In this document: positions 28,313-53,459 of the stretch, piece after piece
Position numbering within the stretch: position 1 is the first letter of the stretch
Layout of the letters: the number at the start of each line of letters is the position of its first letter
Notes under the pieces: generated by a model
The model's input: only the letters and a program-made list of their open reading frames with translations
Told to the model about the DNA's origin: nothing
Database searches by the model: none
Program-made: the position numbers and the translations under genes
NCBI GenBank assembly: GCA_902762795.1
Contig: CACWPM010000017.1
Span: 1 to 64,000 of the forward strand
DNA: 64,000 bases
Direction: 5' to 3'
Source: Fibrobacter succinogenes
Lineage (GTDB): Bacteria; Fibrobacterota; Fibrobacteria; Fibrobacterales; Fibrobacteraceae

Positions 28313-28317
28313 TGAAA

Positions 28318-28408: not shown

Positions 28409-28410
28409 TT

Positions 28411-35986: not shown

Positions 35987-37954
35987 ATGAAAAAAATATC
36001 TCTTTCCTTATTGAGTCTTGCCGGTCTTTCGGCGGGCATGTTCTTTGCTGCATCATGTGCTGCTCCTTCTATCAATCCATCTATTGAGGCTTCTCGGGCT
36101 AGCGAAGAAAATGTGCCTCCGGCAAATTTGCCTCCGATTTATAAGGCTCCTGTCGCTGTGTTCGAAATGCGTGTTCTTGACTTCGATAAGCAAGTTCGTG
36201 TTGTCGAAAAGCCGACTCTTGCTGCGCTTGACTTTGCCGCGTATTTCTCGAACCCGATTCGCATGGCGGGTATGGATGAAAAACCTGAAAATTACACAGG
36301 CAAAATGGCAAATGCGAAATTTGCGGAATTTCCATTCCCGATGTTGGATTCTATTTCGGAATATGAACCGGACGCTGTTGCGGGTGTAGCTCCTATTGCA
36401 TGGGAACCGTTTGCTAAGATTCTCTATGCGCAAACTGGTGACGATTTGCTTTCGAAAACGTTGAACGAAATCGAAGCGGTCAAGTGGGGTGAACCCGAAG
36501 TGTTCCGCACCTTCCAGACGGTGAGCCGTTTGTGGGGTGTTCCCGGAACTGGTGAAAATCAGGGCAAAGTGGAATGGTGGGCCGAGGTGATGCCTGCTGT
36601 TTGGACGGGCCGTGCTCCGTTCTACGGCAAGTTGAAAATTGTTTCGGGTGGTGAATCTGCGGAAGTCCTAAACTATTACATGACTGCCGAGATGAACAGT
36701 GAAGAGGCGATGAACTGGGCTCGTACGCTTTCTTCGTACTGGTACCCGACTTTGAATACGGACTTGGAACAACATACTCCAGGTGCAATTTGGGAAAACT
36801 CCCGTGCAAATCGCCCGTTTGCCGTGATGCGAGGTAATCCGATGGGCAAGCCCATGTGGGTCGCTTTCGAAGTTCCTGCCTTCCGCTTGACGGATGAACA
36901 GCTGCGTGCAGCCGCTGTTGCGGATTCACTTGCGGCTGCGGGTGAAGTTGTGCCTGTTAACCGTACGCTCGATACAAGTTCGTATGCTCGTTTGGAAACG
37001 CTTGCGTCGCTTGAAAATAGCTGCCCTGCAACGCCTGCGACCAAGAAGTTCCGCGATGCGCTCAAGAAGAAACTAGCGAAACTCCCGAAGGAACAGAATG
37101 CCTGGTCCGAAAATGGAATGCTTTGGTTCCGCCGCAATGCCAATTATCTTGTTGCAGATAAAATTAGTGGCCAGGATAGCCTCCACAATCCGCTTCCGAG
37201 AATGATAGAACTCAAGCAGTACTTGGATTCCATGAATGTTCAACTCCTCGTGGTTCCGGTTCCTGTGAAAGAAGAAATTTATGCAGACAAGCTTGTAAAG
37301 GGAACTCCCGCAGACATGTGCGTGAACGTAAACGGTCGTGAATTTATCCGCGAAATGCTTGCTGCCGGGATCGATGTTCTTGACCTTTACCCGTCTTTGA
37401 TGGCCGCTCGTAGCGGTGATGACGCCCCCCATTACAGCTACCAGCGCTACGATACGCACTGGGCTTTGCCGGGGATGCTTGCCGCGATGGAACAGCTAGC
37501 TACTCGTGTGACGCAGTACAGTTGGTATGCCGATGCCAATCCGCAGCCGGGAAGCCTCGTGATGAAGGATACGGTTGTGCTCCGTGAAGGCGACTTGGTC
37601 GCTCATTTACCGGATAAGGAAAAATCCAAATATCCTGCGGATACGCTTGCGGGCATGAAAGTTTATAAGGGCGATAAGCCATACAAGGGCGGCAAAAATG
37701 CACCGATCCTCTTGATGGGAGATTCGTTCACTGGCGTGTTTGAATCTGTGGATCAAAAGAGCGGTGGTCCGGGTTCGCTCCTAGCTTATGCAACGGGGCT
37801 CGACGTGCAGGTGCTTACGAGTTGGGGCGGTGGCCCAGGCGTTCGTAGCCGCTTGAAGAAAATGAAAAAGGACATGCTGAGCAAACGCCTCGTGATTTAC
37901 ATGATGACCGCTCGCGATTTTTGGCAGAGCCCGATGGAATGGGACGGTATTTAA
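35987..37954 (+). CDS. lipoprotein with AlgX/AlgJ-like SGNH domain
   Basis: A 655-residue protein. The signal peptide ends with a lipobox (FFAASC), so it is a lipoprotein. The first half (about 60-300) is not recognised; it has EWWAEVMPAVWTGRAPFYG. The second half resembles the alginate O-acetylation AlgX/AlgJ SGNH-like domain: LVVPVPVKEEIYADKL, IDVLDLYPSLM, the YDTHWALPGM motif (catalytic Asp-x-His), and LLMGDSFTGVF with the nucleophile Ser. Such proteins transfer acetyl groups to surface polysaccharide in the periplasm. No MBOAT partner is present nearby. A GTG six bases upstream is an alternative start. The stop directly abuts a heptad repeat. Confidence 0.65.
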   Translation: MKKISLSLLSLAGLSAGMFFAASCAAPSINPSIEASRASEENVPPANLPPIYKAPVAVFEMRVLDFDKQVRVVEKPTLAALDFAAYFSNPIRMAGMDEKPENYTGKMANAKFAEFPFPMLDSISEYEPDAVAGVAPIAWEPFAKILYAQTGDDLLSKTLNEIEAVKWGEPEVFRTFQTVSRLWGVPGTGENQGKVEWWAEVMPAVWTGRAPFYGKLKIVSGGESAEVLNYYMTAEMNSEEAMNWARTLSSYWYPTLNTDLEQHTPGAIWENSRANRPFAVMRGNPMGKPMWVAFEVPAFRLTDEQLRAAAVADSLAAAGEVVPVNRTLDTSSYARLETLASLENSCPATPATKKFRDALKKKLAKLPKEQNAWSENGMLWFRRNANYLVADKISGQDSLHNPLPRMIELKQYLDSMNVQLLVVPVPVKEEIYADKLVKGTPADMCVNVNGREFIREMLAAGIDVLDLYPSLMAARSGDDAPHYSYQRYDTHWALPGMLAAMEQLATRVTQYSWYADANPQPGSLVMKDTVVLREGDLVAHLPDKEKSKYPADTLAGMKVYKGDKPYKGGKNAPILLMGDSFTGVFESVDQKSGGPGSLLAYATGLDVQVLTSWGGGPGVRSRLKKMKKDMLSKRLVIYMMTARDFWQSPMEWDGI

Positions 37955-37955: not shown

Positions 37956-38108
37956 AACTTAGAACTTAGAATTTAGAACTTAGAATATTCCCTTCTCTCT
38001 AAAAGCAAAACTAAGTTCTGCCAACTAAAATCTGCCAACTAAGTTCTAAGAGCGAAGCGGTCTAAGTTCTACCAACTAAGAATTATGCTGTCTCGTCTCT
38101 CGTCTAAA
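37956..38108. repeat. complex heptad region: aacttag, ctaagtt with AGCGAAGCGG core, ctcgtct
   Basis: Three sub-arrays follow one another: aacttag, aacttag, aatttag, aacttag (37956-37983); ctaagtt, ctgccaa, ctaaaat, ctgccaa, ctaagtt, then agcgaagcggt, then ctaagtt, ctaccaa, ctaagaa (38011-38083); and ctcgtct, ctcgtct, aaact (38090-38108). The last encodes the N-terminus of the next gene. Confidence 0.8.
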
Positions 38109-38807
38109 CTATTCTGGCTGCTATTCCTCGCAACACTTGTGGTTGCACTCTCGCTTCTGCTTTGGAGCGTGCGTTCCGGGAATGTGAGTTACCGCGAAAT
38201 GGCGTGCGTTTTTGAAGAGCGCTCGCCTTCATGCTTGGATTCTATCCGCGATTGGCGCGAGGGCCTTGCTTTTTTTGATAGCAGTGTGGCCGCATCTCGC
38301 GACACGCTTGAGTCGCTCAAGAACTTGCTATGGAAATTTTGGAATATTGAATTTGCTGGAGCAGGTTCTGCAGCCACCTCTAAAGAATCTGTGCTCCCGC
38401 TCCGCGTTCTTGCAAATAGAGAATCGGGTTGCATGGGACTTTCGTGGCTTGCGCTCATGGTGGCAGAGGCTCGTCATTTGCGCTTGTATGCAATTCTGTT
38501 GCCGGGGCATGTTTTTTTACGCTATGATTCCACAAATTTGGAGCCGAATCGTCGCGGGCATTTTTACACGGATACGGAATACCGCGAAAAGTACAAGGAT
38601 GGCAATTGGACGGGACTTGAATTCAATCCCCTGGATCCCAAGGAATTTGTGGGGCTTGCGGCGTTTAATATCGGAAATCTCTACCTCGAATCTGATGTTC
38701 CGCGTGCGCTTACATGGTACCGTATGGCCGAGGAGTTTTTCCCGAAATATCCGGGAATAGAAGTGAATCAAACAATCGCCAAAAGCCGTTTACCTGATTC
38801 AATATAA
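38085..38807 (+). CDS. SirB1/transglutaminase-like membrane-anchored protein
   Basis: A 240-residue protein with one N-terminal membrane segment (FWLLFLATLVVALSLLLWSV). The domain has RESGCMGLSWLALMVAEARHLRLYAILLPGHVFLRY, which fits the SirB1 N-terminal/transglutaminase-like pattern with a Cys and a later His. It ends with a TPR-like helix pair (VPRALTWYRMAEEFFPKYPGI). Residues 2-8 (LSRLSSK) are encoded by a ctcgtct heptad array, so the true ancestral start may have been elsewhere. Function unknown; it precedes the four-lipoprotein operon by about 95 bp. Confidence 0.65.
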   Translation: MLSRLSSKLFWLLFLATLVVALSLLLWSVRSGNVSYREMACVFEERSPSCLDSIRDWREGLAFFDSSVAASRDTLESLKNLLWKFWNIEFAGAGSAATSKESVLPLRVLANRESGCMGLSWLALMVAEARHLRLYAILLPGHVFLRYDSTNLEPNRRGHFYTDTEYREKYKDGNWTGLEFNPLDPKEFVGLAAFNIGNLYLESDVPRALTWYRMAEEFFPKYPGIEVNQTIAKSRLPDSI

Positions 38808-38902: not shown

Positions 38903-41749
38903 ATGTCAAAACGTTCAAATCCTTCGTTTTTCTTTATCAAGGTACTTTTCTTAGTATCCTTTGTTCTTGTTCTTTCAAGCTGTGAAACTTTTTTCGGGGA
39001 CCATGTTTGGCTGAACGCTCCCGTAGAAATGGACAACTCCCATGATGGACTTATTGTCATTAGGGCGTCGAAAATTAAAAATTCCAGCGGTGGAGCCTTG
39101 TCTTATTTGGGGACGTATGCCGATGCGGCAAAGGCGAGTGAGCGTCCGCTATTACGTGCCGCGCTGGGTTACGATTTCTCTGTAGGCTTGCATGAAGTCA
39201 CTTGTGCTGAATTCAGGGAGGTCATGGGAACGACTTTTGACGAACGGTGCAAAGGCGAAGATGCCGATTTGCTTCCGGTAACGAAAGTGACTTACTACGA
39301 TGTGGTTCTTTATTCCAATGAACGGAGTAAGCGAGAAGGCTATGATACGGCCTATTCGTACTCGTCCACTTCTTTTGATGCTAACGGAAACTGTATTTCG
39401 ATGGAGGGCCTGATTTTCCGTCCGGAGGTCGATGCCTACCGCTTGCCTACGGAAGCGGAATGGCTTATGGCGGCGGACCGAGACTGGAATCCGTCTGGAG
39501 AATGGAATGCATTGAATTCTGGTTTTGAACCGAAAAAGGTTTGTTCGTATCCACGTCTTCATAGTGATTTTTGTGACATGGCTGGAAATGTAAAGGAATG
39601 GGTCAATGACTGGCTAGGCTATTTCAGGGACACTACGATTACAAATTACGTGGGTGGGCCTGATGGCGGATCTCTTGGTGAGCGCGTTATCAAGGGAGGG
39701 AGCTATCGCAATGACCCGTATTCGATCAAACTTTATAATCGTGGTGATGTTTATATCGTGACTTCAGCGACAAAGTCGGAGTATCTCGGGTTCCGCATTG
39801 CTTTTGGTAAAATTCCGAATGCGGTCTGGATGGGACGTGATGGACATGCCCGTGAAAGCCGCGTTATTCCAATGGCAAGCGCAACTGTTGTCAAGAATAA
39901 TTTGGAAACTTATCATACAAAGCTTGTTTTCAGGAATGATGTGACGGGAAATTTAGCGTTTGTCGATTATATCAATGGTACGTTATCTGTTGTTGAAATT
40001 GTGGATACGATTCAGTCATATCATCCTGATATCTCGCCGGATGGTCGATTGATCGTTTTCTGCACGGGAATGGAAGGCGTTTCTGGAAAATCTGAAGCGT
40101 TCATTCGTCCTTTCTCGCTATTTTATACAAAACCTTTGAAAGTTAATGTCAAGGGAAACGTTTCTATTCCGCGCTGGCGGGTGTTGGATAATGGCGATAC
40201 TGTGATTGTCTATGTCTCCGATGCAGGAAACAATAAGGATTATGCTTCGTTCAAGTCCAAGAGTACGTGGCAAGTAAAATATGGCAAAGGTCGCTTTGGT
40301 ACTCCGAAAAAGCTTTTTGACGGAGCGTATCATGGAGGAATTTCGGATGACAATACGCTTGCCGTGACGGGAGCGCGCTTACTGCGTGCGCGTGTCGCCG
40401 ATTCTGGCAAAACTCTTGCGAATGGTCGTGATACCGTGTGGTATAATGGTGAACAGGCTTGTAACGTGTCGCTTGCGAATGATGGTTCTAAACGTGTGGC
40501 ATTCCTTGATTTTGGTGGAAAAACTGGCGCCGAGTTTGTCGGAAAAAACTATGAGACGCACGAACGCTTGTTGATTGCCGATAGCACGGGAAAACTTATC
40601 AGGGCTATTGCCGCTCCTGAAGGCTATAGTTTCGATCATGCCGAATGGGCGCTGAATTATGTCAGCCCTGAACCGAATGGAGGCTTTATTGTTGCAACGC
40701 TTACGAATGCTAATGGAGCCCATTCAAAAATAGTCCTTGTGAACGTGGGCGACGGTTCTGTTTTGAATTTGGTGGAAGGCGATGAGCTTTGGCATCCGAG
40801 TATCTGGCGTCAAAAAAACTATATCCCGGAAAAAAGTACGCTTGATCCTGATAGTGCAGGAATTTACTTGTTCCCATCGGATAAATGGGAATCCGTCATT
40901 ATGCGTTATAAGATGAACCTTCTTTGGAAATATCGCGATTCTGCCAATGTCGCTATCTTGGGATCTTCAAGACCTATGTTTGGTGTATCCCCAGAGACTT
41001 TTGATAATAAATTCTTTGCTGTGAATTTCGGACAAACGCCCAATTCGATTTACATGTCTAAAGATTTTCTGAATCGCTACATATTTAAACACTTGAAAAA
41101 ACTCAAGTATATCGTAATCTCGTTGGATATAGATTTTTGGAATAAAATTGATGGGCCGGACGGTGATAACTTCTTTTATACGGACTTTGGAAATTATCCT
41201 GGGTATGTGTATGACGCCAATCATAATTATTGGGAAGACGGTTATCCGGAGGGCTTGTTGGAATATACGGAAAGTTCTGTGGGCTCTTCGGATGAAAGTT
41301 CCTACATGAAAGAACGAGGACGTTATTCGGCCATCACTTGCAATTCATGGCGTGACGATCCCGAAATCGAACAAGATAGTAGCTTTTTTGATGATTTGCA
41401 AAATCTCATTGATGACAGCAAGGATGCCCTTATTTCTATTATCGAAGAATCGGCGAAAAGAAATATCCGCGTGGTAGGGGTTATTTTCCCGCAAAGTCCG
41501 GCGTATGCGAAAACGGGCGCGTTTGGTCGTTATGGCCTGCGTCGCAGTACTGCTAAAAAGCTGATCGGTGAGCTAGAAGCCTTGAGTAAGAAATATCCGA
41601 ATTTCGTGTTGATGGACGAAAATAAAATGGGAAAGCATGATTATACGAACAAAATGGCTGTTGATGAAGACCATTTGTGCTATGGAGGCAGTGTTGTTTT
41701 GACTTCGCGATTGAATAATCTTCTTTTGTCCTGGGAGGCTAAAAAATGA
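38903..41749 (+). CDS. FGE-like/beta-propeller/SGNH-like lipoprotein, paralogue 1
   Basis: A 948-residue lipoprotein (lipobox VLSSC). Three parts are visible. Residues about 50-305 are a formylglycine-generating-enzyme (SUMF1) type domain with YRLPTEAEWLMAA, DMAGNVKEWVNDW and KGGSYRND...YLGFRIAF, lacking the catalytic Cys pair. Residues 350-640 are a TolB-like propeller with SYHPDISPDGRLIVFCTGMEG and TVIVYVSDAGNNKD. Residues about 680-945 are SGNH-like, with LGSSR near 686, the signature TGAFGRYGLRRSTAK and a final DEDHL near 921. It agrees with my memory of TIGR02171, a paralogous Fibrobacter family of unknown function. The start follows an AGGGGG site, and the stop overlaps the next start (ATGA). 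Confidence 0.8.
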   Translation: MSKRSNPSFFFIKVLFLVSFVLVLSSCETFFGDHVWLNAPVEMDNSHDGLIVIRASKIKNSSGGALSYLGTYADAAKASERPLLRAALGYDFSVGLHEVTCAEFREVMGTTFDERCKGEDADLLPVTKVTYYDVVLYSNERSKREGYDTAYSYSSTSFDANGNCISMEGLIFRPEVDAYRLPTEAEWLMAADRDWNPSGEWNALNSGFEPKKVCSYPRLHSDFCDMAGNVKEWVNDWLGYFRDTTITNYVGGPDGGSLGERVIKGGSYRNDPYSIKLYNRGDVYIVTSATKSEYLGFRIAFGKIPNAVWMGRDGHARESRVIPMASATVVKNNLETYHTKLVFRNDVTGNLAFVDYINGTLSVVEIVDTIQSYHPDISPDGRLIVFCTGMEGVSGKSEAFIRPFSLFYTKPLKVNVKGNVSIPRWRVLDNGDTVIVYVSDAGNNKDYASFKSKSTWQVKYGKGRFGTPKKLFDGAYHGGISDDNTLAVTGARLLRARVADSGKTLANGRDTVWYNGEQACNVSLANDGSKRVAFLDFGGKTGAEFVGKNYETHERLLIADSTGKLIRAIAAPEGYSFDHAEWALNYVSPEPNGGFIVATLTNANGAHSKIVLVNVGDGSVLNLVEGDELWHPSIWRQKNYIPEKSTLDPDSAGIYLFPSDKWESVIMRYKMNLLWKYRDSANVAILGSSRPMFGVSPETFDNKFFAVNFGQTPNSIYMSKDFLNRYIFKHLKKLKYIVISLDIDFWNKIDGPDGDNFFYTDFGNYPGYVYDANHNYWEDGYPEGLLEYTESSVGSSDESSYMKERGRYSAITCNSWRDDPEIEQDSSFFDDLQNLIDDSKDALISIIEESAKRNIRVVGVIFPQSPAYAKTGAFGRYGLRRSTAKKLIGELEALSKKYPNFVLMDENKMGKHDYTNKMAVDEDHLCYGGSVVLTSRLNNLLLSWEAKK

Positions 41750-44529
41750 AGATTTCTGTTCAATCGCGTATGAATTTTTTTCTGTTCTGGATACTGTCGA
41801 TTGCTATGTTGACGGCTTGTTCTAGCGATGAAAATATTTTTCCGGCTGTCGTTCCGTTAAAAAACGGAACGGAAATTGACGGGATGGTTTATATCAATGC
41901 AATAGGCCAATCGACCGTCTTGGGGACAAATGCCGATAAGGTGCGTTCAAGCGAAACTCCCGAGATGAATGTCTCGTTTACATATGATTTCTATATCGAT
42001 GAACATGAAGTAACTTGTAGTGAATACAAGGCTTTAATGACAAATGCTGGTCCAAAATGTGATGATTCGCTTGGTGGTAATCGTCCGATTACGAACGTGA
42101 CATTTTATGATGCTGTCCTTTATGCTAATGCGAAGAGCAAGGCGGAACATCTTGATACCGTTTATACGTACACGGATGCAAATTTTGATGGTTCTGGGAA
42201 TTGTCTTGGCTTGTCAGGTTTGAATTTCCATGAAAAGGTGAAGGGATACCGTTTACCGACGGAAGCGGAATGGGTTTTCGTGGCAAATCAAGGTTGGGAT
42301 CCCCAAAATGCTTGGAATAGCATAAATTCAAATTATACAAGCCATGATGTGGCTACTTCTACGGCGAATCGATTTGGCGTTTATGACATGGCGGGAAATG
42401 TCTTGGAATGGGTGAACGATTGGTTGACTTATTTCAAAAAAAGTTCGATAACGAATTTTGTCGGTGGTCCCGATGGAGGTCGTCTTGGCGAACGTGTTGT
42501 CAAGGGTGGAAGCTATCGTGATGAACCCTCGTTGATGAATACGTATAGCCGAGGTGATGTTTATACGGTGACGGGATCGTCGATGGGGGATTATCTTGGA
42601 TTTCGGTTGGCTTTGGGCGCTATTCCGAATGCGACATGGTTAGATGAACGTGGTGAGGCCAAGGAATCTGTTGCAAAAGTTTCAATTGAAACGTATGATA
42701 TGAAACATTTGACGGGAACATTTGAATCCAAGATGGTCTTCCTCAATAATGAGACGGGTAATTTGTCCTTTGTCGATTTTGGAAAAGGCATAAATTCTGT
42801 TGTTGAAATCAAGGATTCATTTGTTGTATTGCATCCGGAGAAATCGCCGGATGGAATACCATTCCATCCGGACATATCGCCTGATGGAAAACGTGTGGCT
42901 TTCTGCACGGGGATGGAAGGCTATTCTGGGGGGTCGAGCGTTTATGTGCGTAATTTGGATGCGAGTGGATCGGGCTTGGTCAAGCTGAATGTTGCAAATG
43001 CGGCTATCCCGCGCTGGCGCGTTCTCGAAAATGGCGATACGGTGATTGTTTACGTGACGGATGCTGGTAACAATAAGGATGATGCCACGTTTGGAGCTGT
43101 AAGCACATGGCAGGTGAAATTCGCAAAGGGCAAGTTCGGCACGCCAGAAAAACTTTTTGATGGCGCTTACCACGGCGGAATCAGCGAGAACAATACTCTT
43201 GCCGTTACGGGCGCTCGTTTGTTGCGCGCTCGCGTTGCCAATTCGGGATCGACCGTTATGGGAATGGCCCGTGATACCGTATGGTACGGTGGCGAACAGG
43301 CCTGTAACGCGTCTCTTGCAAATGACGGTAGCAATAGAACCTTATTCCTTGATTTTGGCGGTAAAACGGGTGCTGATTTTGTGGGAAAGTCTTACCGAAC
43401 ACATGAACGTCTTTTGGTGGCTAATGCAAAAGGTGAACTTGTACAAAGTATCGCGGCACCTGATGGATATACATTCGACCATACGGAATGGGTCTTGGGT
43501 GGGACGAATTATGCCGTTGCAACGCTTGTAAATGTTAACGGATTCCATGAAAAAATAGTGCTGATTAACTTGTCTGATAGCTCAATCGTAACGCTAGCCG
43601 AAGGCGATAATCTTTGGCATCCGAGCCTGTGGCATTCAAAAAATAACTACAATAGCAAGGATTTGAATACCGATAGTGCAGGCGTTTATTACACGTCCAA
43701 CGCTTTTTACAGTGCATTGGAACTGCGCGTAAAAATGGAACGTTTTTGGGAAAATAGAGATAAGATTACCGCAGTCGCCTTGGGATCCTCAAGAACGATG
43801 TTCGGTTTGTATGAAAAGGAAATTGGTTCGTACAATTTATTGAACATGGCGTTTTCCAATGGCCAAATGACGGGAATAAATTATTTGTTTACGAACTATG
43901 TGATGAGGCATTTAAAAAATTTGAAAGTCCTGATTGTAGAAATGTCGCCGGATTTCTTATGGTATCCGGGAATTGTTAATTGGGCTGATGCTATTTACGA
44001 CAAAGTTCCTGGATTCAAGTATGATGAAAATCATGATTTTTGGGTAGATAGTTTGCCTGATCATTTTATCGATGCTTTGAAAGTGACTCCGAAACCGGAA
44101 ACAGCCCTGATGCATCCGTACAATCTGGATGATTTCTTGCTGCCGGCTATGGGGTGGGGCGTACCAGTTTTTATTAGGGATTCTACGGCGCAAACATTTG
44201 ATTCTCCGATTTATGCAGAAAACATCAATGTGTTTAAGAATATAATTGCAACAGCACGCGCAAAAGGCATCAAGGTCGTTGTAACGGTTATGCCTCAGCA
44301 TTCCGGTTATAAAGAAACTGGCGCATTTGGCGTCTATGGCCCGAGAAGAAGTGTCGCGAAATCCATTATTGATTCCGTAAAAGCCATGGATGTCATATTA
44401 TTCGATGAAAATAAATTTGGTATTCATGATTATACGGATGAAATGGCTTATAATGTAGATCATTTGAGTACTTCGGGTGCGAAACAGTTTACGCATAGGC
44501 TGGATTCCTTGCTTTCGACATTGAGATGA
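41746..44529 (+). CDS. FGE-like/beta-propeller/SGNH-like lipoprotein, paralogue 2
   Basis: A 927-residue lipoprotein (lipobox MLTAC) with the same three parts as its neighbours: YRLPTEAEWVFVA and DMAGNVLEWVNDW, a propeller with WQVKFAKGKFGTPEKLFDGAYHGGIS, then LGSSRTMFG near 679, TGAFGVYGPRRSVAK, and a VDHL near 904. A 33-bp tandem duplication at 42832-42897 has doubled the propeller motif to HPEKSPDG...HPDISPDG, adding 11 residues without breaking the frame. It overlaps both neighbours by 4 bp, so translation is coupled. Confidence 0.8.
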   Translation: MKISVQSRMNFFLFWILSIAMLTACSSDENIFPAVVPLKNGTEIDGMVYINAIGQSTVLGTNADKVRSSETPEMNVSFTYDFYIDEHEVTCSEYKALMTNAGPKCDDSLGGNRPITNVTFYDAVLYANAKSKAEHLDTVYTYTDANFDGSGNCLGLSGLNFHEKVKGYRLPTEAEWVFVANQGWDPQNAWNSINSNYTSHDVATSTANRFGVYDMAGNVLEWVNDWLTYFKKSSITNFVGGPDGGRLGERVVKGGSYRDEPSLMNTYSRGDVYTVTGSSMGDYLGFRLALGAIPNATWLDERGEAKESVAKVSIETYDMKHLTGTFESKMVFLNNETGNLSFVDFGKGINSVVEIKDSFVVLHPEKSPDGIPFHPDISPDGKRVAFCTGMEGYSGGSSVYVRNLDASGSGLVKLNVANAAIPRWRVLENGDTVIVYVTDAGNNKDDATFGAVSTWQVKFAKGKFGTPEKLFDGAYHGGISENNTLAVTGARLLRARVANSGSTVMGMARDTVWYGGEQACNASLANDGSNRTLFLDFGGKTGADFVGKSYRTHERLLVANAKGELVQSIAAPDGYTFDHTEWVLGGTNYAVATLVNVNGFHEKIVLINLSDSSIVTLAEGDNLWHPSLWHSKNNYNSKDLNTDSAGVYYTSNAFYSALELRVKMERFWENRDKITAVALGSSRTMFGLYEKEIGSYNLLNMAFSNGQMTGINYLFTNYVMRHLKNLKVLIVEMSPDFLWYPGIVNWADAIYDKVPGFKYDENHDFWVDSLPDHFIDALKVTPKPETALMHPYNLDDFLLPAMGWGVPVFIRDSTAQTFDSPIYAENINVFKNIIATARAKGIKVVVTVMPQHSGYKETGAFGVYGPRRSVAKSIIDSVKAMDVILFDENKFGIHDYTDEMAYNVDHLSTSGAKQFTHRLDSLLSTLR
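42832..42897. repeat. 33-bp tandem duplication in paralogue 2
   Basis: Two adjacent units both start catccgga and continue with atcgcc(g/t)gatgga. The duplication is in frame and doubles the HPDISPDG propeller turn found once in the other three paralogues. Confidence 0.8.
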
Positions 44530-47285
44530 ACATGAAGTTAATTTGTTTTTTGTTGATTGCTTTTTTGGTCGCCTGCTCGGATTCCGATGGGCTTCATTTT
44601 CCCGATAATTTGGATCCTAATGCTGTAGAAATTTCGCTTCCGGGTATGTCGTGGTTTAAAACGGATAGTGTTGTTTTTTTGGGTACAAATGACACATCCG
44701 CTAAAGCTTCTGAACGTCCGCAGATGAAAGTCTTCTTGAATTATAAATTCTCGCTTGGCAAGCATGAAGTGACTTGTGCCGAATTTAATGCCTTGATGAC
44801 TTCGTCAACTGGGCTTGCTTTGAATTGCTCTAGCGACAATATTCCTGCGACAAATATGACCTATTACGATGCCGTTCTTTTTGCGAATGAACGTAGTAAA
44901 GCTGCAGGTTTTGATACTGCTTACACATACCTTAGGGCTCAATTTGATTCTGAAAATCATTGTACAAGCTTAAACGGCTTTGCTTTTCATCCTGAAAAAA
45001 AAGCTTACCGCTTGCCAACGGAAGCGGAATGGGTGGCCGTAGCCAGGGATGGTTGGAAAAAAAACGGTGGATGGACTTCTGAAAATTCGGATTACAAGTT
45101 ACACGAAATATGTACGGAAAGCGACAATAATGCAAATTTCTGTGATATGCTTGGAAATGCGATGGAGTGGGTGAATGACTGGAATGGAAGTTTCCGTGAT
45201 ACGGTTCTGACAAACTATGTAGGCGCACCTGATGGTGGCGTATTTGGAATGCGGGTTGTCAAGGGCGGGTGCTATCGGAATTTGTTAAGTACGATTAATT
45301 TATACAGACGTGGAGATATTTATACGGTAACTTCTTCGACACGTCTGGATTATGTAGGGTTTCGGCTTGCTTTTGGTGCCATTCCCGATGCCGTTTGGAT
45401 GGGCTCGGATGGCAATGCCGTAACAAGTCGAATTGTCCAGCTGGCTAGTTCAACGGATTTACGTTCTTTGACGGGTACATATAAAGTTAAACTTGCTTTC
45501 CGCAACGATCTTTCGGGAAACCTGGCGTTTATTGATTATTCGAATGGTGTTCCTTCCGTGATCGAAATCATGGACAGTATTGATGTGTATCATCCCGAAA
45601 TTTCTCCAGATGGTAAAAAGGTCGCTTTTTGTACGATGTATGAAGGCATATCCGGAAAGTCGGAACTTTATGTTCGCGATTTGGATGCTTCAGGAGCAAA
45701 TCTTGTAAAGCTTGGTGTCGAAAGTGCAGCAATCCCTCGGTGGCGAGTGATTGGTTCAGATACGGTTATTGTCTATGTTTCTGATGCCGGGAATAACAAG
45801 GACGATGCTTTGTTTATGTCCGCTTCGACATGGCAGGTGAAATTTTCGAATGGAAAATTCGGTGAACCTAAAAAAATGTTTGATGGCGCTTACCATGGTG
45901 GCGTTAGCGAGAACAATACTCTTGCTGTTTCCGGTGCTCGACTTTTGCGGGCTCGTATTGCAAAAACGGATTTGTCTGTTGCGGAAAAAGCGATTGATAC
46001 CATATGGTACAAAAATGAAAATGAGGCTGAACAGGCCTGTAATGCTTCGCTTGCTAAGGATAGTAGCAAACGTACGTTGTTCCTCGATTTTGGTGGAAAA
46101 ACAGGGCAAAAATTTGTTGGGAAAAAATATGCAACGCACGAACGTTTGCTTGTCGCCGATTCCACAGGGAAACTGATCCAGTCCGTTGCTTCCCCGGAAG
46201 GGTTTACATTTGATCATTCAGAATGGGCGTCTGGTGCTCGGAACATTGCCGTAGCGTCTCTTACGAATGCAAACGGGGCCCATTCAAAAATCATTCTAGT
46301 TAATTTGTCTGACAGTAGCTTTGTCGAACTTGCCGAAGGCGAGGAATTGTGGCATCCTTGTTTGTGGGTCAAAAAAGATTACGATTTAAGTAATTCGTCA
46401 CTTAATCTCGACAGTGCTGGCGTGTATTTCAAAGAAGGTCAGGATTGGGCGCATATTTCGCTAGGCTATAAAATGTCGCTGCTTTGGAAATATAGGGATG
46501 ATATTGAAGTTTTATGTGTAGGCAGTTCGAGAACCGAAAACAGCCTTATTGTTACAGAAATGGCATCGGGATTTTCCTTGAATATGGGGCATTCTGGTAA
46601 CGATATGAACGCTTCGCTGTATATTGCTGAAAATTATGGAATCAACCATTTGAAAAAATTGAAGTATGTAGTTGTGTCCCTTGATTTTGATATTTGGCAG
46701 AATTCAACAGAATATACGGATATGCTGATAAAGAAAACGCCTGGCTATGTGTATGATGCAAACCACGATTTTTGGACTTCTGGATTACCTGACGGATTCT
46801 TGAAGGCGGTCGAACAAGCTTCGCAGTATTCTGATGTCGCAAGAAAAGTTTACGATCCAACACGTGGCTATTTTGCTGTACTTGATGCCGGTTGGGGCCC
46901 TGCTTCTGTGGAACTCGATTCAAATTGGCATGGTGAAGCCGGTTTGGAAAAAGTGGAATGGAACATCAATAGATTGAAACAGTTTATAATTCGAATGGGA
47001 TCCTTTGATATAAAAGTTGTCGGCCTGATTTTCCCGTTGAATCCCGGCTATCGTGAAACTGGGGCTTGGGGACCTTATGGCCTGAAGCGTTCTATGGCAA
47101 AAAATATTTTGGATACGTTAAAGACTTTTGAAGGTCTATATCCGAACTTTACTGTAATGGATGAAAATAAAAATGGGAATCATGACTATTCGGATGATTG
47201 CGCTTCGAGTACAGACCATCTGGGGGCTCATGGCGCGGCTAAAATAACGTTACGTCTGGATTCTCTTTTAAAGACTTTAAAATGA
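44526..47285 (+). CDS. FGE-like/beta-propeller/SGNH-like lipoprotein, paralogue 3
   Basis: A 919-residue lipoprotein (lipobox FLVAC) with the family layout: AYRLPTEAEWVAVA, DMLGNAMEWVNDW and KGGCYRN (a Cys where the others have Ser), the propeller YHPEISPDGKKVAFCTMYEG, then GSSRTE near 665, TGAWGPYGLKRSMAK and DHLGAHGA near 896. The SGNH-like part is more diverged from paralogues 1 and 2 than the propeller is. It overlaps both neighbours by 4 bp. Confidence 0.8.
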   Translation: MNMKLICFLLIAFLVACSDSDGLHFPDNLDPNAVEISLPGMSWFKTDSVVFLGTNDTSAKASERPQMKVFLNYKFSLGKHEVTCAEFNALMTSSTGLALNCSSDNIPATNMTYYDAVLFANERSKAAGFDTAYTYLRAQFDSENHCTSLNGFAFHPEKKAYRLPTEAEWVAVARDGWKKNGGWTSENSDYKLHEICTESDNNANFCDMLGNAMEWVNDWNGSFRDTVLTNYVGAPDGGVFGMRVVKGGCYRNLLSTINLYRRGDIYTVTSSTRLDYVGFRLAFGAIPDAVWMGSDGNAVTSRIVQLASSTDLRSLTGTYKVKLAFRNDLSGNLAFIDYSNGVPSVIEIMDSIDVYHPEISPDGKKVAFCTMYEGISGKSELYVRDLDASGANLVKLGVESAAIPRWRVIGSDTVIVYVSDAGNNKDDALFMSASTWQVKFSNGKFGEPKKMFDGAYHGGVSENNTLAVSGARLLRARIAKTDLSVAEKAIDTIWYKNENEAEQACNASLAKDSSKRTLFLDFGGKTGQKFVGKKYATHERLLVADSTGKLIQSVASPEGFTFDHSEWASGARNIAVASLTNANGAHSKIILVNLSDSSFVELAEGEELWHPCLWVKKDYDLSNSSLNLDSAGVYFKEGQDWAHISLGYKMSLLWKYRDDIEVLCVGSSRTENSLIVTEMASGFSLNMGHSGNDMNASLYIAENYGINHLKKLKYVVVSLDFDIWQNSTEYTDMLIKKTPGYVYDANHDFWTSGLPDGFLKAVEQASQYSDVARKVYDPTRGYFAVLDAGWGPASVELDSNWHGEAGLEKVEWNINRLKQFIIRMGSFDIKVVGLIFPLNPGYRETGAWGPYGLKRSMAKNILDTLKTFEGLYPNFTVMDENKNGNHDYSDDCASSTDHLGAHGAAKITLRLDSLLKTLK

Positions 47286-50257
47286 AGGAATTTGATATGA
47301 AACTATTTGATTCGAAAAGAAAATTTTTGTGGGTGAGTCTGTCTTTGTTTTCTATTCTAGGAATGGCGTGTTCAGGCGATTCTCCGACACAATCGAAAAA
47401 TGAAAAATCGGTTGTTTGTATGCGCCAAGGTAATTGCTCGGACGTAAATTTGCAGGATGATTTTGCCCTGGTTCGTGCTTCAGGTAAATCTACGGTGATA
47501 GGGACAAACTCTAAGTCCGCCAAGGCGAATGAACGCCCTGAAATGGAGATCAAGTTTACTTATGATTATCAACTGGGAATACACGAAGTCACTTGTGGTG
47601 AATTTAATGGTTTGATGGGTTCAGTCAAAATAGATTGTGACAAGAGTACTTTGCCTGCAGCCAATGTGACGTATTATGATGCCGTTCTTTATGCTAATGC
47701 CAAAAGCAAAAAGGCGAAACTGGATACTGCTTATATTTACTCTTCGGCTGAATTTGACAAGAATGGTCATTGCATCTTGATGGAAGGCTTTAAATTCAAT
47801 CCCGATGTCAATGCTTTCCGTTTGCCGACCGAGGCAGAATGGGTTTTTGCTGCCGGGCTTTCGTTCGATGCTTCGAATAGTTGGAATTCCGAAAATTCTG
47901 ATTTCAAGTCTCATGAAATTTGTAAGAAAAAGGACAAGAATGGCTTTTGTGATTTGCTTGGAAATGTGACGGAATGGGTCAATGATTGGCTTCTCAATTT
48001 CCGTGATACGACAATTACGAATTTTGTGGGCGGAAACGATGGTGGAAGCATTGGCGAACGAGTTATCAAGGGGGGAAACTTTAAAAATGAACCGTCAACG
48101 ATAAATCTCTATGCTCGTGGGGATGTTTATACGGTTACGGGAACTAGTGCCTCCGATTATTTGGGTTTCCGATTGGCCTTTGGAAAAATTGAAAATCCGA
48201 TTTGGCTCGATGCTTCGGGGGATGCCGTTATTTCGAATGTGTCTGTTGTAGAGAAGACAAAAAATGTCTTGTCGATTTTGCAGAAAAACCGCTCGAAACT
48301 TGCGTTCCGTAATGATGTTACCGGAAATTTGGCTTTTGTAGATTTTGGACCGCTTACGCCAAATGTCGTTGAAATCAAGGATACTCTACAGGTTTATCAT
48401 CCTGATATTTCTCCGAATGGAAAGCTTGTGGCTTTCTGTACGGGGCAAGAAGGCGTAAGTGGAAAATCGTCTGTTTATGTCCGTAATTTAAACGCTAGTG
48501 GGAGTAACCTGGTTAAGCTTGATGTCGAATCTGCAGCCATCCCGCGTTGGCGAGTACTCGAAAATGGCGATACGGTGATTGTCTATGTCACAGATGCAGG
48601 CAATAATAAAGAAGAATCTTCGTTTAAATCGGCATCAACATGGCAGGTAAAATTTGCAAATGGAAAATTTGAAAAAACGGAAAAACTTTTTGATGGCGCC
48701 TATCATGGCGGAATTAGTAATGATGAAACTTTGTCTGTGACTGGTGCGCGGCTGCTACGTGCCCGAATTGCGTCGAAAGAATCGACTGTAAAATCGAAGG
48801 CTAAGGACACGGTTTGGTATGGTGGAGAGCAGGCTTGTAACGCATCGTTGAATAAAAACTCTAAACGTATTTTGTTCCTTGATTTTGCGGGGAAGACCGG
48901 AAACGAATTTGTCGGGACAAAATACCGTACTCACGAACGTTTGCTGATTGCGGGGAGCGATGGCAAGCTGGTTTCTTCGGTCGGTGCTCCGGCGGGCTTT
49001 ACTTTTGACCATAGCGAATGGGTCTTGAATGATGAAAAATTTGCTGTAGCAACACTTACAAATGCCGAAGGCGCTCATTTGAAGATTGTTTTGGTGAATA
49101 CCAAGGACGGTTCAATTACGCCTCTCGTGGAGGGCGATGAACTTTGGCATCCATGCTTGTGGACATCGACTGGATATACTTCGGATGCTTCCAAGTGGAG
49201 CGCGGATAGTGTAGGTCATTATGTCTCGGCGGCTAATCAGACAAATTATTTCTTATCGCATAAGATGCCGATGTTTTGGAAGCTCAAGGATTCTGTGGAA
49301 CTGGTAGGGCTTGGAAATTCTCACTTGTTGATCGGTTTTGCGGCGCCCGAAATGAGTATGCCTTCTATGAATATGGGGGTTGTCCCGTGCGATATGCATT
49401 GCATTCATTATCTCTTTAAAAATTATGTGTTGAATCAATGTCCTAAAGTGAAATACGTGGTTGTCGGGCTCGATATTGATTTATGGTACAACATCGATGA
49501 ACGTACAACGATTAATGACTGTATGGGTGGCGCTCTTGGTTTTGAATACGATAGAAATCACGGCTATTTCCCGAAAGGGGTCGATAATGATTTTATAAAA
49601 ATTGTTATGGATAATGCCTCTGATGATTTGGATGAATTTATCGAATATCGGGGTTGGCATGTCGCTTCGGATAACCGAGGATGGACGGATGAAAATGGCG
49701 TTGCAAGTTTTAGTGGGGATTCTACGTGGAGCGATTGTCTATTCAATAAAGATTTTGCAGATTGCCTAGTGGATAAAGATCAGAAAACCTGCATGTCGAT
49801 TAACACAAATGAAAATGATGATATTTTTAAACCCATGGAAGTCTGTGTTCAGGACACGAACCTGAACAAGTGCCTTGCAAAGTCTGAACTGAATCAATGC
49901 TTGGCGATTTTCTCGGGCGATATTGATAAACTAAAGGATATTGTTCGTTTGGCCAAGGATCGCAATATCACGGTCATTGGAACGATGTTCCCGATTAGCC
50001 CGTATTATAAGGAAACGGGTTCTTATGGACGCCATGGTATGCGTCGCAGTCATGCGAAAAAAATTATCGAGGAATTTAAGGCGTTGGCTGCTAGCGGGTC
50101 AAATTTCGTCCTCTTTGATGAAAATAAATTGGGCGAACACGATTATCCGAGTTCGATGGCGAATGACTTTGACCATTTGAACAAGGAGGGGGCTAAGCGT
50201 TTTGCGACTCGTTTGGATGAGTTTATTAAATCTTTGAACTCCAAGTCTGAAAAGTAG
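47282..50257 (+). CDS. FGE-like/beta-propeller/SGNH-like lipoprotein, paralogue 4, with Cys-rich insertion
   Basis: At 991 residues the longest of the four (lipobox LGMAC). The FGE-like and propeller parts follow the family. In the SGNH-like part the usual GSSR is GNSH near 677, TGSYGRHGMRRSHAK is the family signature, and the final motif is FDHL near 962. About 60 extra residues (nucleotides 49730-49915) hold six cysteines in repeated x-C-L/V/M pairs (SDCLF, ADCLV, KTCMS, EVCVQ, NKCLA, NQCLA), not present in the other three. The start overlaps paralogue 3 by 4 bp; the in-frame ATG at 47297 has a GAAGGA site and could be used instead. A membrane protein gene follows after 9 bp. Confidence 0.8.
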   Translation: MKEFDMKLFDSKRKFLWVSLSLFSILGMACSGDSPTQSKNEKSVVCMRQGNCSDVNLQDDFALVRASGKSTVIGTNSKSAKANERPEMEIKFTYDYQLGIHEVTCGEFNGLMGSVKIDCDKSTLPAANVTYYDAVLYANAKSKKAKLDTAYIYSSAEFDKNGHCILMEGFKFNPDVNAFRLPTEAEWVFAAGLSFDASNSWNSENSDFKSHEICKKKDKNGFCDLLGNVTEWVNDWLLNFRDTTITNFVGGNDGGSIGERVIKGGNFKNEPSTINLYARGDVYTVTGTSASDYLGFRLAFGKIENPIWLDASGDAVISNVSVVEKTKNVLSILQKNRSKLAFRNDVTGNLAFVDFGPLTPNVVEIKDTLQVYHPDISPNGKLVAFCTGQEGVSGKSSVYVRNLNASGSNLVKLDVESAAIPRWRVLENGDTVIVYVTDAGNNKEESSFKSASTWQVKFANGKFEKTEKLFDGAYHGGISNDETLSVTGARLLRARIASKESTVKSKAKDTVWYGGEQACNASLNKNSKRILFLDFAGKTGNEFVGTKYRTHERLLIAGSDGKLVSSVGAPAGFTFDHSEWVLNDEKFAVATLTNAEGAHLKIVLVNTKDGSITPLVEGDELWHPCLWTSTGYTSDASKWSADSVGHYVSAANQTNYFLSHKMPMFWKLKDSVELVGLGNSHLLIGFAAPEMSMPSMNMGVVPCDMHCIHYLFKNYVLNQCPKVKYVVVGLDIDLWYNIDERTTINDCMGGALGFEYDRNHGYFPKGVDNDFIKIVMDNASDDLDEFIEYRGWHVASDNRGWTDENGVASFSGDSTWSDCLFNKDFADCLVDKDQKTCMSINTNENDDIFKPMEVCVQDTNLNKCLAKSELNQCLAIFSGDIDKLKDIVRLAKDRNITVIGTMFPISPYYKETGSYGRHGMRRSHAKKIIEEFKALAASGSNFVLFDENKLGEHDYPSSMANDFDHLNKEGAKRFATRLDEFIKSLNSKSEK

Positions 50258-50266
50258 GCTCTAGGT

Positions 50267-51922
50267 ATGTTTTGGTTATTCGTATCTGTTGCGGTTGCGC
50301 TTTTTGCAATATTCCCGTTGACGGATACGGATATCTGGTGGCATTTGGCTTGTGCCCGCGAATGGGTGACAACATGGACTCCTGTTCGCGAACCCGTTGT
50401 GAATGTGCACGATTATTTTCAACAGGCGGTAGCGCTTGTTTATAATCTAGGGGGCGCTCCGTTATTGGTTGCTTTCAAGGCTATATTGTGGGCTACCGTG
50501 TTTGCGCTGTTTTTACACGGAATGAAATTCTGCGGAGGTTGTTTGAATTGCCGTGTCGAATATCATGAATTTCGACATGACGTAGAGAACGCCATGGGGA
50601 AGAAACGGCCTCTTGCGATTTTATTTGCGATTGCGGGTGCCTCCGTTATTCTCTTTGTATTCCGCTTCCAGTTTGAAATGCGTCCAGTGCTTTTTAGCTT
50701 GCTGTTCCTTGGAATATATTGGAATGTTTTGCCGTGGCTTGTGGAGGGACGCATAGAAAATCCTCCATTCCGTTATGACGAACAGCGTGGGTTTTGCCGT
50801 TGCGCGTCAATCCCGTACGACTTGAAGAAAATTTCAGCGCTCATATTGATTCTCGTCTTGCAATGGTTTTGGTGTAAATGTCAAGGACTGTACATTCTTG
50901 GTCCGTTGTTTGCACTTCTCGTTTTGGCCTCGGAATTGTTGAACATGCGCTTGAACGAAATGCAGATAGAATGTAAATGGCTGTTGGCTCGGTTGGCGTT
51001 CGTGGTGGCGCTTTTTGCTATGCCGTTTTTACATTGTGATGGGGTGAATTTGTTCTTGTATCCGTTTGGCTTGTTGGAACGCTTGCTCGGATTTTCTCCA
51101 TCGGCTGCCATTTTTGCAAGCGAAATTGCAGAAAACCGTTCTCCGGTTACGCTTTTGATGAACGGCGAAAATGTACTGCAAAGTGTACTGATGATTGTGC
51201 TGTGCGCTATCGGGGTTTGGCTCTCATGCAGTCTACTGCGTTCGCTTTATTTTTCGTTGCGCAAGATTGAAGGCCGCAAAACAATCTCTAGACAATTTGT
51301 TTGTAATATATCTCTTGTCGTGACGGCGATTCTTGCCCTTGTCGCCGAACGCAATTTTGTATTGTTCCTACCTGTGTTTTTTGCTGCTTGTGGCAGTCAA
51401 CTGCGTTCGGACACTTTTCATTTAAGCTCCAAGTTTTACCAGATAAGTTCTAAATTGCGTTTCCTTCCTGCTTCCTACATTGTACTTCCTGCACTCATCG
51501 TAGCCTTCCTCCTCGGCCTTTGGGCGAAATCTCTTGCGTCTTACGACCATTCCATGGTAGCGTTCCAGCGAGTGCCTGTCGCGGCGACGGCATGGATGCT
51601 CGAACATTCGCATCCGGGGAGACTTTTCAATGACGACCGTGCGGGCGGTTACTTGGCTTTTATGAACCCGTCCGATTCGACGTTCATCGATGGACGATTT
51701 ATCTTGAAATCGGCTGAATTTTTCGAACGCTATTTGGCGTATGCCAAGGAACCAAATCTTTTTTTGCGCGATGCCGATTCTCTGCGAATCGACCGTGTGG
51801 TGTTGCCTTTGTTCTATTACACCCGCTGGGGCAAATTGGTTATGACTTTGGATTCGTCCGAAAAATGGCACATCGCGTACCGTGACTCTTTTTATGCTGT
51901 GATTGACCGCACAAAGTACTAA
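50267..51922 (+). CDS. polytopic membrane protein, GT-C glycosyltransferase-like
   Basis: A 551-residue protein with about ten hydrophobic helices. The N-terminus has the DxD-bearing segment FPLTDTDIWWHLACAREWV, where D-T-D-IWWHL is typical of uncharacterised GT-C-fold transferases that use lipid-linked sugars. The C-terminal soluble part has RLFNDDRAGGYLAF followed by STFIDGRFILKSAEFFERYLAY, again typical of that group. It is immediately downstream of the four lipoproteins (9 bp) and probably in the same operon, which suggests a joint role in surface glycan or lipoprotein glycosylation. That role is inference. Confidence 0.68.
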   Translation: MFWLFVSVAVALFAIFPLTDTDIWWHLACAREWVTTWTPVREPVVNVHDYFQQAVALVYNLGGAPLLVAFKAILWATVFALFLHGMKFCGGCLNCRVEYHEFRHDVENAMGKKRPLAILFAIAGASVILFVFRFQFEMRPVLFSLLFLGIYWNVLPWLVEGRIENPPFRYDEQRGFCRCASIPYDLKKISALILILVLQWFWCKCQGLYILGPLFALLVLASELLNMRLNEMQIECKWLLARLAFVVALFAMPFLHCDGVNLFLYPFGLLERLLGFSPSAAIFASEIAENRSPVTLLMNGENVLQSVLMIVLCAIGVWLSCSLLRSLYFSLRKIEGRKTISRQFVCNISLVVTAILALVAERNFVLFLPVFFAACGSQLRSDTFHLSSKFYQISSKLRFLPASYIVLPALIVAFLLGLWAKSLASYDHSMVAFQRVPVAATAWMLEHSHPGRLFNDDRAGGYLAFMNPSDSTFIDGRFILKSAEFFERYLAYAKEPNLFLRDADSLRIDRVVLPLFYYTRWGKLVMTLDSSEKWHIAYRDSFYAVIDRTKY

Positions 51923-52007
51923 AACGTATGTCATAAATAATTTATTTTTGAGTACTAAAAATTTATTTTTAAATAGATTTAACGGCCCTTTGGGCATAGG
52001 AGTTGGT

Positions 52008-53459
52008 ATGAATCGTTTGGCGAAAATTGGACTTGCAGGAATGCTCTTGTGTGGGCTTGCCTCGGCTGCTGTCAATTTCCCTTTCCCGCAAAGTTCCAAT
52101 TACGGCGGAAATGGCATCGTTCTTTCAAATCAGGCTGAAGCCGCTTCGCAGTTGAAGAAGGCTTTTGATTTTTATATGAAGGACAAGTACAAAGAAAATG
52201 ATTCGTACGCTGCGATAGAAAAGGATAAGGGCAGTAACAATTTTGTCTCTGAAGGAACCGGCTATGGTATGTTGATGATGGTCTACTTCAGTGACAATAC
52301 GACAAGCTATCAACCTCAGTTTGATAAATTATGGGCTTTTTATAAGGCCGGAGTCAATGAACACGGGCTGATGAACTGGTCGTTTGGAGGTCTGAAACCG
52401 TACGACAACAAGGCGAACGCTGCGACCGATGCGGAAATGGATGTCGCTGCGGCTTTGATTATGGCCGCCTACCAGTTTGGCGACGAAAAGTATCTGGAAG
52501 AAGCTCGCAAACTCCTAAAAAATGTAAAACAGTATGAATTTGAAGAGAATGGCCTTCACAAGCCGGGCGATGCTTGGAACGACAAGAAAAACCCCTCCTA
52601 TATAGCTCCCGCTTATTACAGGCTGTTTGCTGAAGTGGACACTGAAAATTCTGATTTCTGGAACACCACGGCAATGAATGCCAACTATACATTGCTTGAA
52701 ACGAATTCGGCGGAATATTCGACGGGACTTTTTGACAACTGGTCCAATGCTAGCGGAAAGGGACTGGACAGAAACTATGGCTATGATGCGGCTCGCACGC
52801 CGTGGCGCCTGGCGCAGGATTTCTACTGGTTCGGTGAAGCGAAGGCCAAGACGATGCTTGATAAATTGGGTTCTTGGGTCAGCACAAAGCAGGCAAAAGA
52901 TGTGAAAGGGCAAATTAATCGTGACGGCAGTGTCGAAAACTGGACGTCCCATAATAGTACGTTTGTTGCAACGCTGATGACTTCGCTGGTTACGGATGCT
53001 TCTCATCAGGGAAAGCTCGATGAATTTTGGAATGAGACCGTTTCTTTGGGTGAAGAAGCCTATTTTGAACAGTCCTTGAAAATCCTTTGCGGTTTGCTGG
53101 TTTCGGGAAATATGCCGAATCTTTCTGTTGCTCCGACGACGCCGGAATCTTCAAGTTCGGTTTCCGAAAGTTCTAGCTCCGCGGAACAACAATCCAGTTC
53201 TAGCAGTGGAACGAACGCTTTGCCGATCGCTAAGGTGGACGCCGTGAAGATGGAACTTGCGGGTAGAACGCTCCGGTTGAGTGTAAATGGAAATGTCCGT
53301 GTGGACTTGATTTCTATGACGGGAACCGTCTTGAAGTCTTACAGCAAGAATGCTGCAGGATCTGCCGAAGTTTCCTTGAACGCTCTTCCAAGCGGTTTTT
53401 ATGTTGTGCGCGTGAAGAACGCCGGGGTGACATCGCTTAGGAAAATAAAGCTAGATTAA
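52008..53459 (+). CDS. secreted glycoside hydrolase family 8 endoglucanase
   Basis: A 483-residue enzyme. The signal peptide is MNRLAKIGLAGMLLCGLASA. The GH8 (alpha/alpha)6 barrel (about 20-385) has the acid-residue segment VSEGTGYGMLMMVYF and ATDAEMDVAAALIMAAYQFG (GH8 signature), and later LDRNYGYDAARTPWRLAQDFYWFG. A Ser-rich linker (SSSSVSESSSSAEQQSSSSS) and a 70-residue C-terminal domain (MELAGRTLRLSVNG...LPSGFYVVRVKNAG) follow, the latter a sorting-type tail. It hydrolyses beta-1,4-glucan outside the cell. The ATG at 52008 follows an AGGAG site; the frame opens further upstream but overlaps the previous gene. Confidence 0.9.
   Translation: MNRLAKIGLAGMLLCGLASAAVNFPFPQSSNYGGNGIVLSNQAEAASQLKKAFDFYMKDKYKENDSYAAIEKDKGSNNFVSEGTGYGMLMMVYFSDNTTSYQPQFDKLWAFYKAGVNEHGLMNWSFGGLKPYDNKANAATDAEMDVAAALIMAAYQFGDEKYLEEARKLLKNVKQYEFEENGLHKPGDAWNDKKNPSYIAPAYYRLFAEVDTENSDFWNTTAMNANYTLLETNSAEYSTGLFDNWSNASGKGLDRNYGYDAARTPWRLAQDFYWFGEAKAKTMLDKLGSWVSTKQAKDVKGQINRDGSVENWTSHNSTFVATLMTSLVTDASHQGKLDEFWNETVSLGEEAYFEQSLKILCGLLVSGNMPNLSVAPTTPESSSSVSESSSSAEQQSSSSSGTNALPIAKVDAVKMELAGRTLRLSVNGNVRVDLISMTGTVLKSYSKNAAGSAEVSLNALPSGFYVVRVKNAGVTSLRKIKLD

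Follow-up and report, generated by a model that had tools for sequence, protein, structure and literature searches.

Gene organisation of the locus

The window considered here, that is, the whole 64,000-nt stretch of DNA that was analysed, comes from Fibrobacter succinogenes (assembly GCA_902762795.1, contig CACWPM010000017.1, positions 1 to 64,000, forward strand), and belongs to a genome of 3.93 Mb in 89 contigs. It contains a block of genes encoding an AlgX-like protein, a transglutaminase-like protein (TGL), four lipoproteins of the TIGR02171 family (LP1 to LP4) and a polytopic membrane protein (GTC). The features are as follows.

35987..37954, + strand: AlgX-like SGNH lipoprotein, which opens the block (lipobox AASC; DTHW and GDS motifs; Pfam ALGX)
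38085..38807, + strand: TGL, membrane-anchored transglutaminase-like (Cys-His) protein (Pfam Transglut_core2)
38903..41749, + strand: LP1, TIGR02171 lipoprotein with FGE-like, propeller and predicted SGNH parts (948 aa; 1172.8 bits)
40817..41746, + strand: predicted SGNH domain of LP1 (aligned region of alignment A1)
41746..44529, + strand: LP2, TIGR02171 lipoprotein (927 aa; 1341.3 bits; ATGA overlap with LP1)
43642..44526, + strand: predicted SGNH domain of LP2 (aligned region)
44526..47285, + strand: LP3, TIGR02171 lipoprotein (919 aa; 1356.4 bits)
46377..47282, + strand: SGNH domain of LP3, modelled (Ser668 codon 46527-46529, His898 codon 47217-47219)
47282..50257, + strand: LP4, TIGR02171 lipoprotein, C-terminal domain with an insertion (991 aa; 1127.3 bits, in two stretches)
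49172..50254, + strand: predicted SGNH domain of LP4 (aligned region)
50267..51922, + strand: GTC, polytopic protein with a predicted GT-C/oligosaccharyltransferase fold (551 aa; invariant D20-T-D22 and E289)

A previous sequence-only reading had drawn attention to the ATGA overlaps that link the genes LP1 to LP4 and to a polytopic reading frame 9 bp after LP4, all of which are present as described. The genes that it delimited, at 38903-51922, are real, but the conserved block starts at 35987 and therefore includes two upstream genes that were omitted. Across 32 GTC loci from the same genus, the order AlgX-like, TGL, one to five LPs and GTC is conserved, in keeping with the operon that had been proposed. 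The AlgX-like gene is found in 29 of these loci and the TGL gene in 31, the exceptions lying at the edge of the stretch examined. The coupling of LP genes is not a chance feature of one genome, since 57 of 62 LP-LP junctions in the 32 related loci overlap or are separated by at most 50 bp (14 with an ATGA overlap, 43 otherwise within 50 bp, and 5 longer). Promoter and terminator scans of the locus gave signals at or barely above chance level.

Several other features were recorded around these loci. A GH8 endoglucanase with a type 9 secretion system (T9SS) sorting tail is encoded 3' of GTC (window positions 51993-53459), and a homologue occupies the same place in 14 of the 32 loci. At positions 27161-31888 of the window, genes for the specificity and R subunits of a type I restriction system precede one for a PD-(D/E)XK transposase-family protein. 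In three other genomes (L083:5276, L084:11027 and L101:7517), open reading frames of 354-382 aa that match LP3 adjoin TGL, and these are apparently partial TIGR02171 proteins.

The TIGR02171 lipoproteins

LP1 to LP4 score 1127-1356 bits against TIGR02171, about twice the curated cut-off of 544.35 bits, and all are full-length members. The family is catalogued in NCBIfam as Fb_sc_TIGR02171 with no function assigned, as the sequence-only reading had stated, and a literature search found no paper mentioning it. The proteins are 919-991 aa long, and the lipobox cysteine is present in 109 of 109 relatives.

The three-part architecture also holds. An FGE-sulfatase Pfam match is found in LP1 to LP4 at 77-107 bits. 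As had been noted, the catalytic Cys pair of formylglycine-generating enzymes is lacking: the four proteins have none at the canonical position after KGGS and instead read KGGSYRN..NRGD-type sequences. For the central TolB-type propeller, a PD40 signal is present, although it is weak at the sequence level in LP1 to LP4. The sequences also show the G(S/N)S motif, a TGAxGxYGxRRS-like motif and the terminal DHL. Among 109 members, mean pairwise identity is 37% in the SGNH part, 53% in the FGE part and 57% in the propeller.

A scan of 84,980 species genomes with one peptide pattern returned 200 stretches that encode a relative. Among the 76 loci listed, records belong to Fibrobacter or other Fibrobacterota, except for one contig labelled Bacteroidales. 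The latter (L160), a 4.4-kb contig with a TIGR02171-type SGNH domain, is probably a mis-binned rumen contig. The genome of the window holds six full TIGR02171 members and many relatives hold more. Two of the six are solitary full-length genes on other contigs (C6:61777-64491 and C9:18127-20805). Both adjoin or lie near a gene for a GGDEF protein (diguanylate cyclase; L013:11740-12891 on C6 and L014:6933-8081 on C9), and a GH16 gene is also found near the solitary member in L014.

Composition and age of the paralogue array

The number of LP copies per array varies across the 32 loci: one copy in 5 loci, two in 6, three in 9, four in 10 and five in 2. In a tree of the 109 members, LP1 orthologues come first in the array of six related genomes, while LP4 orthologues of the same group come late, and last in most. 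Other genomes hold other members, and the LP1, LP2 and LP4 orthologues are kept in order by only part of the genus. Judged from these sequences, a fixed set of four LPs is a feature of one genome group only. Neighbours on the tree tend to share an array position (39 changes, against 59.6 on average after shuffling), which argues that the paralogues are old and differentiated. Recent tandem duplication is ruled out, as LP1 to LP4 are deeply diverged paralogues.

The close coupling of four paralogues had been taken to suggest a hetero-oligomeric complex. A fixed tetramer is not supported, given the range of one to five copies per array, and solitary copies are common, with two in this genome. 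An LP array does adjoin GTC in a conserved operon, but the number of LPs in it varies from one to five.

The C-terminal domain has a predicted SGNH fold

Profiles of the LP SGNH domain, GTC and the AlgX-like protein found nothing significant by sequence among solved structures, AlgJ appearing only at 0.09, and structure prediction was therefore used. For LP3 residues 618-919, AlphaFold2 with 91 relatives as input gave a model with a mean pLDDT of 95.0 and a pTM of 0.94. It matches SGNH enzymes at a Foldseek probability of 1.00 and aligns to many of them at VIA-align Z scores of 14.3-11. PAF acetylhydrolase is the top structural match (Z 14.3), followed by sialate O-acetylesterase (13.4). DltD gives the longest alignments (239-242 residues; Z 12.7-13.2), and OatA and PatB match at Z 11.3. 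The sequence-only reading had proposed a domain of SGNH type, and the predicted fold is indeed the three-layer one. The LP C-terminal domain is therefore predicted, on the strength of this model, to fold as an SGNH hydrolase-type domain.

The expected catalytic residues are strongly conserved. Ser668, in the G-(S/N)-S motif of block I, is present in 109 of 109 members and sits after strand 45-48, where helix 51-56 of the LP3 model begins, while His898 of block V is present in 108 of 108. Asn686, Tyr704 and Asp744 are invariant (Asp744 in 109 of 109), and 108 of 109 members have His747. The invariant Asn686 and the near-invariant Asp722 lie close to the expected strand ends. No GxND motif of block III can be recognised in the LP sequences. 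Position 895, that of the block V Asp (DxxH), is Asp in 51, Asn in 56 and Ser in 1 of the 109 members; LP1 and LP4 have Asp, LP2 has Asn and LP3 has Ser. Because Asp and Asn are about equally frequent there, the classical triad is not universal in the family. Asp744 or Asp897 might stand in for the block V Asp, and SGNH esterases with a Ser-His dyad exist (PMC9487903). Of the three parts, the SGNH domain varies most and yet its active site is fixed, a pattern that fits enzymes diversified in substrate.

Membership of the AlgX family (PF16822) was considered for this domain and rejected. There is no profile similarity (hhalign probability 0.1 against the AlgX profile, A3, and 2.5 against the AlgJ profile, A6), and Ser precedes His in the LPs, rather than the permuted order of His before Ser.

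Partners within the block: AlgX-like, TGL and GTC

The AlgX-like protein matches Pfam ALGX at 67.4 bits, against a gathering cut-off of 26.5. It has the DxHW and GDS motifs, and its D490, H492, W493 and S581, together with the lipobox cysteine, are invariant in 25 relatives. It is the most conserved member of the block, with a mean column identity of 67%. TGL matches Transglut_core2 at 33.8 bits, and its C116 and H142 are invariant in 17 relatives.

GTC has no Pfam family match, and no solved structure was found for it by sequence. Its model (pLDDT 79, pTM 0.82) matches oligosaccharyltransferases over residues 1-551, with Z scores of 16.0 for AglB (441 residues), 15.5 for STT3 and 14.5 for PglB, and also matches PMT, DPY19, ALG3, Emb and ArnT. 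The predicted fold thus agrees with the GT-C-like character already ascribed to this protein. Asp20-Thr-Asp22 and Glu289 are invariant in the GTC alignment, as expected of a GT-C enzyme, and mean column identity is 46%. The WWDYG motif is absent from both the sequence and the alignment, and GTC is for this reason named a GT-C protein with an oligosaccharyltransferase-like fold, not an oligosaccharyltransferase.

AlgI and AlgJ in relatives and in the genome of the window

In distant Fibrobacterota families and in two genera of the same family, the block is headed by the genes of an MBOAT of AlgI type and of an AlgJ-like protein. The order is MBOAT, AlgJ-like, AlgX-like, TGL and GTC in L130, L134 and L145, and MBOAT, AlgJ, AlgX and GTC in L131 and L146. 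The MBOAT and SGNH genes therefore share one locus in these five cases, while they are dispersed in the genome of the window. There is no MBOAT inside the Fibrobacter block, so that the link to acylation rests on the relatives and on co-occurrence.

The AlgI orthologue of the window's genome lies at C7:175553-176968, and its C-terminal end, FLYFQF, fits FXYXXF, the acyl-shuttle motif of envelope-acylating MBOATs in the MBOAT-SGNH mechanism (PMC12148441). The WHGA histidine and the C-terminal motif are invariant in the MBOAT alignment (A5), and a search with the AlgI-type profile finds DltB structures at 3e-31. The AlgJ orthologue (C17:69883-71679) lies 18 kb downstream of GTC, beyond the window, and the AlgJ-like profile matches AlgJ and AlgX structures at 9e-13. 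During the acetylation of alginate, transfer is carried out by AlgX, and AlgJ is an SGNH protein with an intermediate or accessory role (PMC4148444).

Some neighbouring genes were also observed. An FGE-sulfatase-domain protein is encoded directly upstream of the AlgJ orthologue (L226:6333-7841, corresponding to C17 ~68332-69840, outside the window). A secreted protein of ~150 aa with no Pfam family, a possible AlgF-like partner, adjoins the AlgI-type MBOAT here and in relatives (L148:11132-11590, L131:3569-4024, L137:4789-5250 and L130:8962-9414). In other genera, the block often ends, after GTC, with a gene for a stand-alone PD40 propeller (L139:12540-13577, L140:2328-3380, L131:10991-12016, L146:1586-2614 and L134:8197-9228). 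Profile comparison relates this propeller weakly to that of TIGR02171 (hhalign probability 74%), as if the TIGR02171 propeller also existed as a separate part in other genera.

Co-occurrence was profiled in 67 genomes of the genus, 55 with GTC and 12 without, as raw counts that treat each genome as independent. The 55 GTC-positive genomes contain AlgX-like in 54 cases and AlgI, AlgJ and full TIGR02171 in all 55. The 12 GTC-negative genomes, of which several are incomplete and two 99% complete, and which may reflect few loss events, contain no AlgX-like gene, no AlgJ (two weak matches at ~1e-8), AlgI in one and full TIGR02171 in three; these three have TIGR02171 without GTC. A glycan as target had been suggested from the tight coupling of the four paralogues. 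That context is strengthened by AlgI and AlgJ genes, which head the block in relatives and co-occur with GTC in the genus.

A candidate glycan-acylation system and its alternatives

Four SGNH lipoproteins encoded beside AlgX-like and oligosaccharyltransferase-shaped proteins suggest that these bacteria probably acylate or deacylate their own surface sugars. With moderate confidence, the block is interpreted as the envelope end of a glycan-acylation system of the AlgI/AlgJ/AlgX (MBOAT-SGNH) type, in which the TIGR02171 lipoproteins would be the diversified terminal serine acyltransferases or esterases. The interpretation draws on computed folds, conserved catalytic residues, gene order and co-occurrence. 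Weighing against it are the lack of an MBOAT gene in the Fibrobacter block, the variable residue at position 895, the missing profile similarity of the LP SGNH domain to AlgX or AlgJ, the solitary TIGR02171 copies and the three genomes that carry TIGR02171 but not GTC. In such a system, the AlgI-type MBOAT with its FXYXXF motif, encoded elsewhere in the genome, would carry acyl groups across the inner membrane. The AlgJ-like and AlgX-like SGNH proteins would then take over these groups, in a relay whose order, like the acyl group itself and the role of TGL, we infer. GTC, working on the same exported or surface glycan, would transfer a lipid-linked sugar at the periplasmic side. The lipoproteins, through Ser668 and His898, would add or remove acyl groups on an exported glycan or glycoconjugate, with surface location, substrate and direction of reaction all presumptive. 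Their FGE-like and propeller parts may serve in recognition, and the members of an array may differ in acceptor specificity.

Four other explanations deserve consideration. The lipoproteins could be cell-surface carbohydrate esterases of the fibre-degrading machinery, deacetylating xylan, pectin or cello-oligomers. The structural matches of the SGNH model include sialate O-acetylesterase, acetylxylan esterases and the carbohydrate esterase PbeAcXE, downstream of GTC lies a secreted GH8, in the window as well as in 14 of 32 loci, and cellulose degradation is known for the genus (PMC6851124). This explanation is nevertheless somewhat unlikely. The LPs are tightly linked to, and lost together with, the AlgX-, AlgJ- and AlgI-like genes and the GT-C gene; they are lipoproteins and not T9SS-tailed secreted enzymes like the GH8; and the AlgX/GTC core is found also in distant Fibrobacterota families.

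Alternatively, the SGNH fold might be catalytically dead and the lipoproteins might act as glycan-binding surface receptors or adhesins, as an FGE domain without its Cys pair, the missing block V Asp in half of the members and the unrecognisable GxND motif would allow. Against this, the most divergent domain keeps its Ser and His throughout 109 members, and Ser-His dyad enzymes are known, which makes a dead fold quite improbable. It is similarly doubtful that the block is a protein-glycosylation unit, in which GTC glycosylates the adjoining lipoproteins and their SGNH domains are incidental. Although the GTC fold is nearest to AglB, STT3 and PglB and GTC strictly adjoins the LP array, the protein lacks WWDYG, distant relatives have GTC without a TIGR02171 gene alongside, and the SGNH active site is strictly conserved. 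Finally, it is highly improbable that the LPs are type 9 secretion lipoproteins related to GldK/GldJ: Fibrobacter does use T9SS tails (PMC6851124) and the FGE part of LP2 matches the GldK model at 4e-17, but this match arises because the FGE fold is common to both, the scores of 17-63 bits rule out GldK/GldJ identity against the GldK cut-off of 350, and the genes conserved alongside are AlgX-like, TGL and GTC.

The MBOAT-SGNH acylation system accordingly remains the preferred interpretation. An unlikely extension of it is that a three-tier SGNH system (AlgJ-like, AlgX-like and expanded outer-membrane LPs), together with the oligosaccharyltransferase-fold glycosyltransferase, writes varied acyl patterns on one surface glycan, with one site per paralogue and the make-up of the array as a strain-specific surface code.

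TIGR02171 as a named family, and MBOAT-SGNH acylation as a kind of system, were already known. Within the reach of the searches, what is new is assigning the C-terminal domain to SGNH, linking the block to AlgI/AlgJ/AlgX and to an oligosaccharyltransferase-fold GT-C protein, and finding FGE-propeller-SGNH lipoproteins in expanded number. The family TIGR02171 is large and specific to the Fibrobacter lineage, and its predicted serine-enzyme fold, invariant catalytic residues and proposed pathway context make it directly testable. The findings suggest that alginate-type acylation, with diversified terminal enzymes, alters the surface of a key fibre-degrading genus, and this could be relevant to cellulose adhesion and to surface variation between strains.

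Comparison with known systems

As regards the TIGR02171 family itself, of which LP1 to LP4 are full members, the present analysis adds the predicted SGNH fold, the catalytic residues and the operon partners. GTC resembles PglB, AglB, STT3 and other GT-C enzymes in its predicted fold (residues 1-551) and in a DxD-like D20-T-D22 near the N-terminus, but differs from PglB, AglB and STT3 in lacking WWDYG, in having no sequence-level match and in its shorter soluble domain.

The alginate O-acetylation system (AlgI/AlgJ/AlgX/AlgF) is similar in that an AlgX-like gene lies in the block and AlgI- and AlgJ-like genes elsewhere in the genome, with catalytic motifs kept. In contrast to that system, the block adds TGL, an oligosaccharyltransferase-fold GT-C protein and one to five TIGR02171 lipoproteins, and the AlgI and AlgJ genes of Fibrobacter lie dispersed. 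An alginate synthase was not seen within the 64-kb window. In the Wss acetylated-cellulose system, WssF-I are homologous to AlgX/FIJ and are encoded within a cellulose synthase operon. An MBOAT, AlgX/AlgJ-like SGNH proteins and a nearby GH8 are shared with it. BcsZ-type GH8 enzymes occur in cellulose operons, whereas the GH8 here has a T9SS tail, and no cellulose synthase was seen within the 64-kb window. Teichoic-acid D-alanylation by DltB/DltD offers a further parallel, as the LP SGNH domain aligns longest with DltD and the AlgI-type profile matches DltB; here, however, the predicted SGNH domain is part of Gram-negative lipoproteins that also carry FGE and propeller domains.
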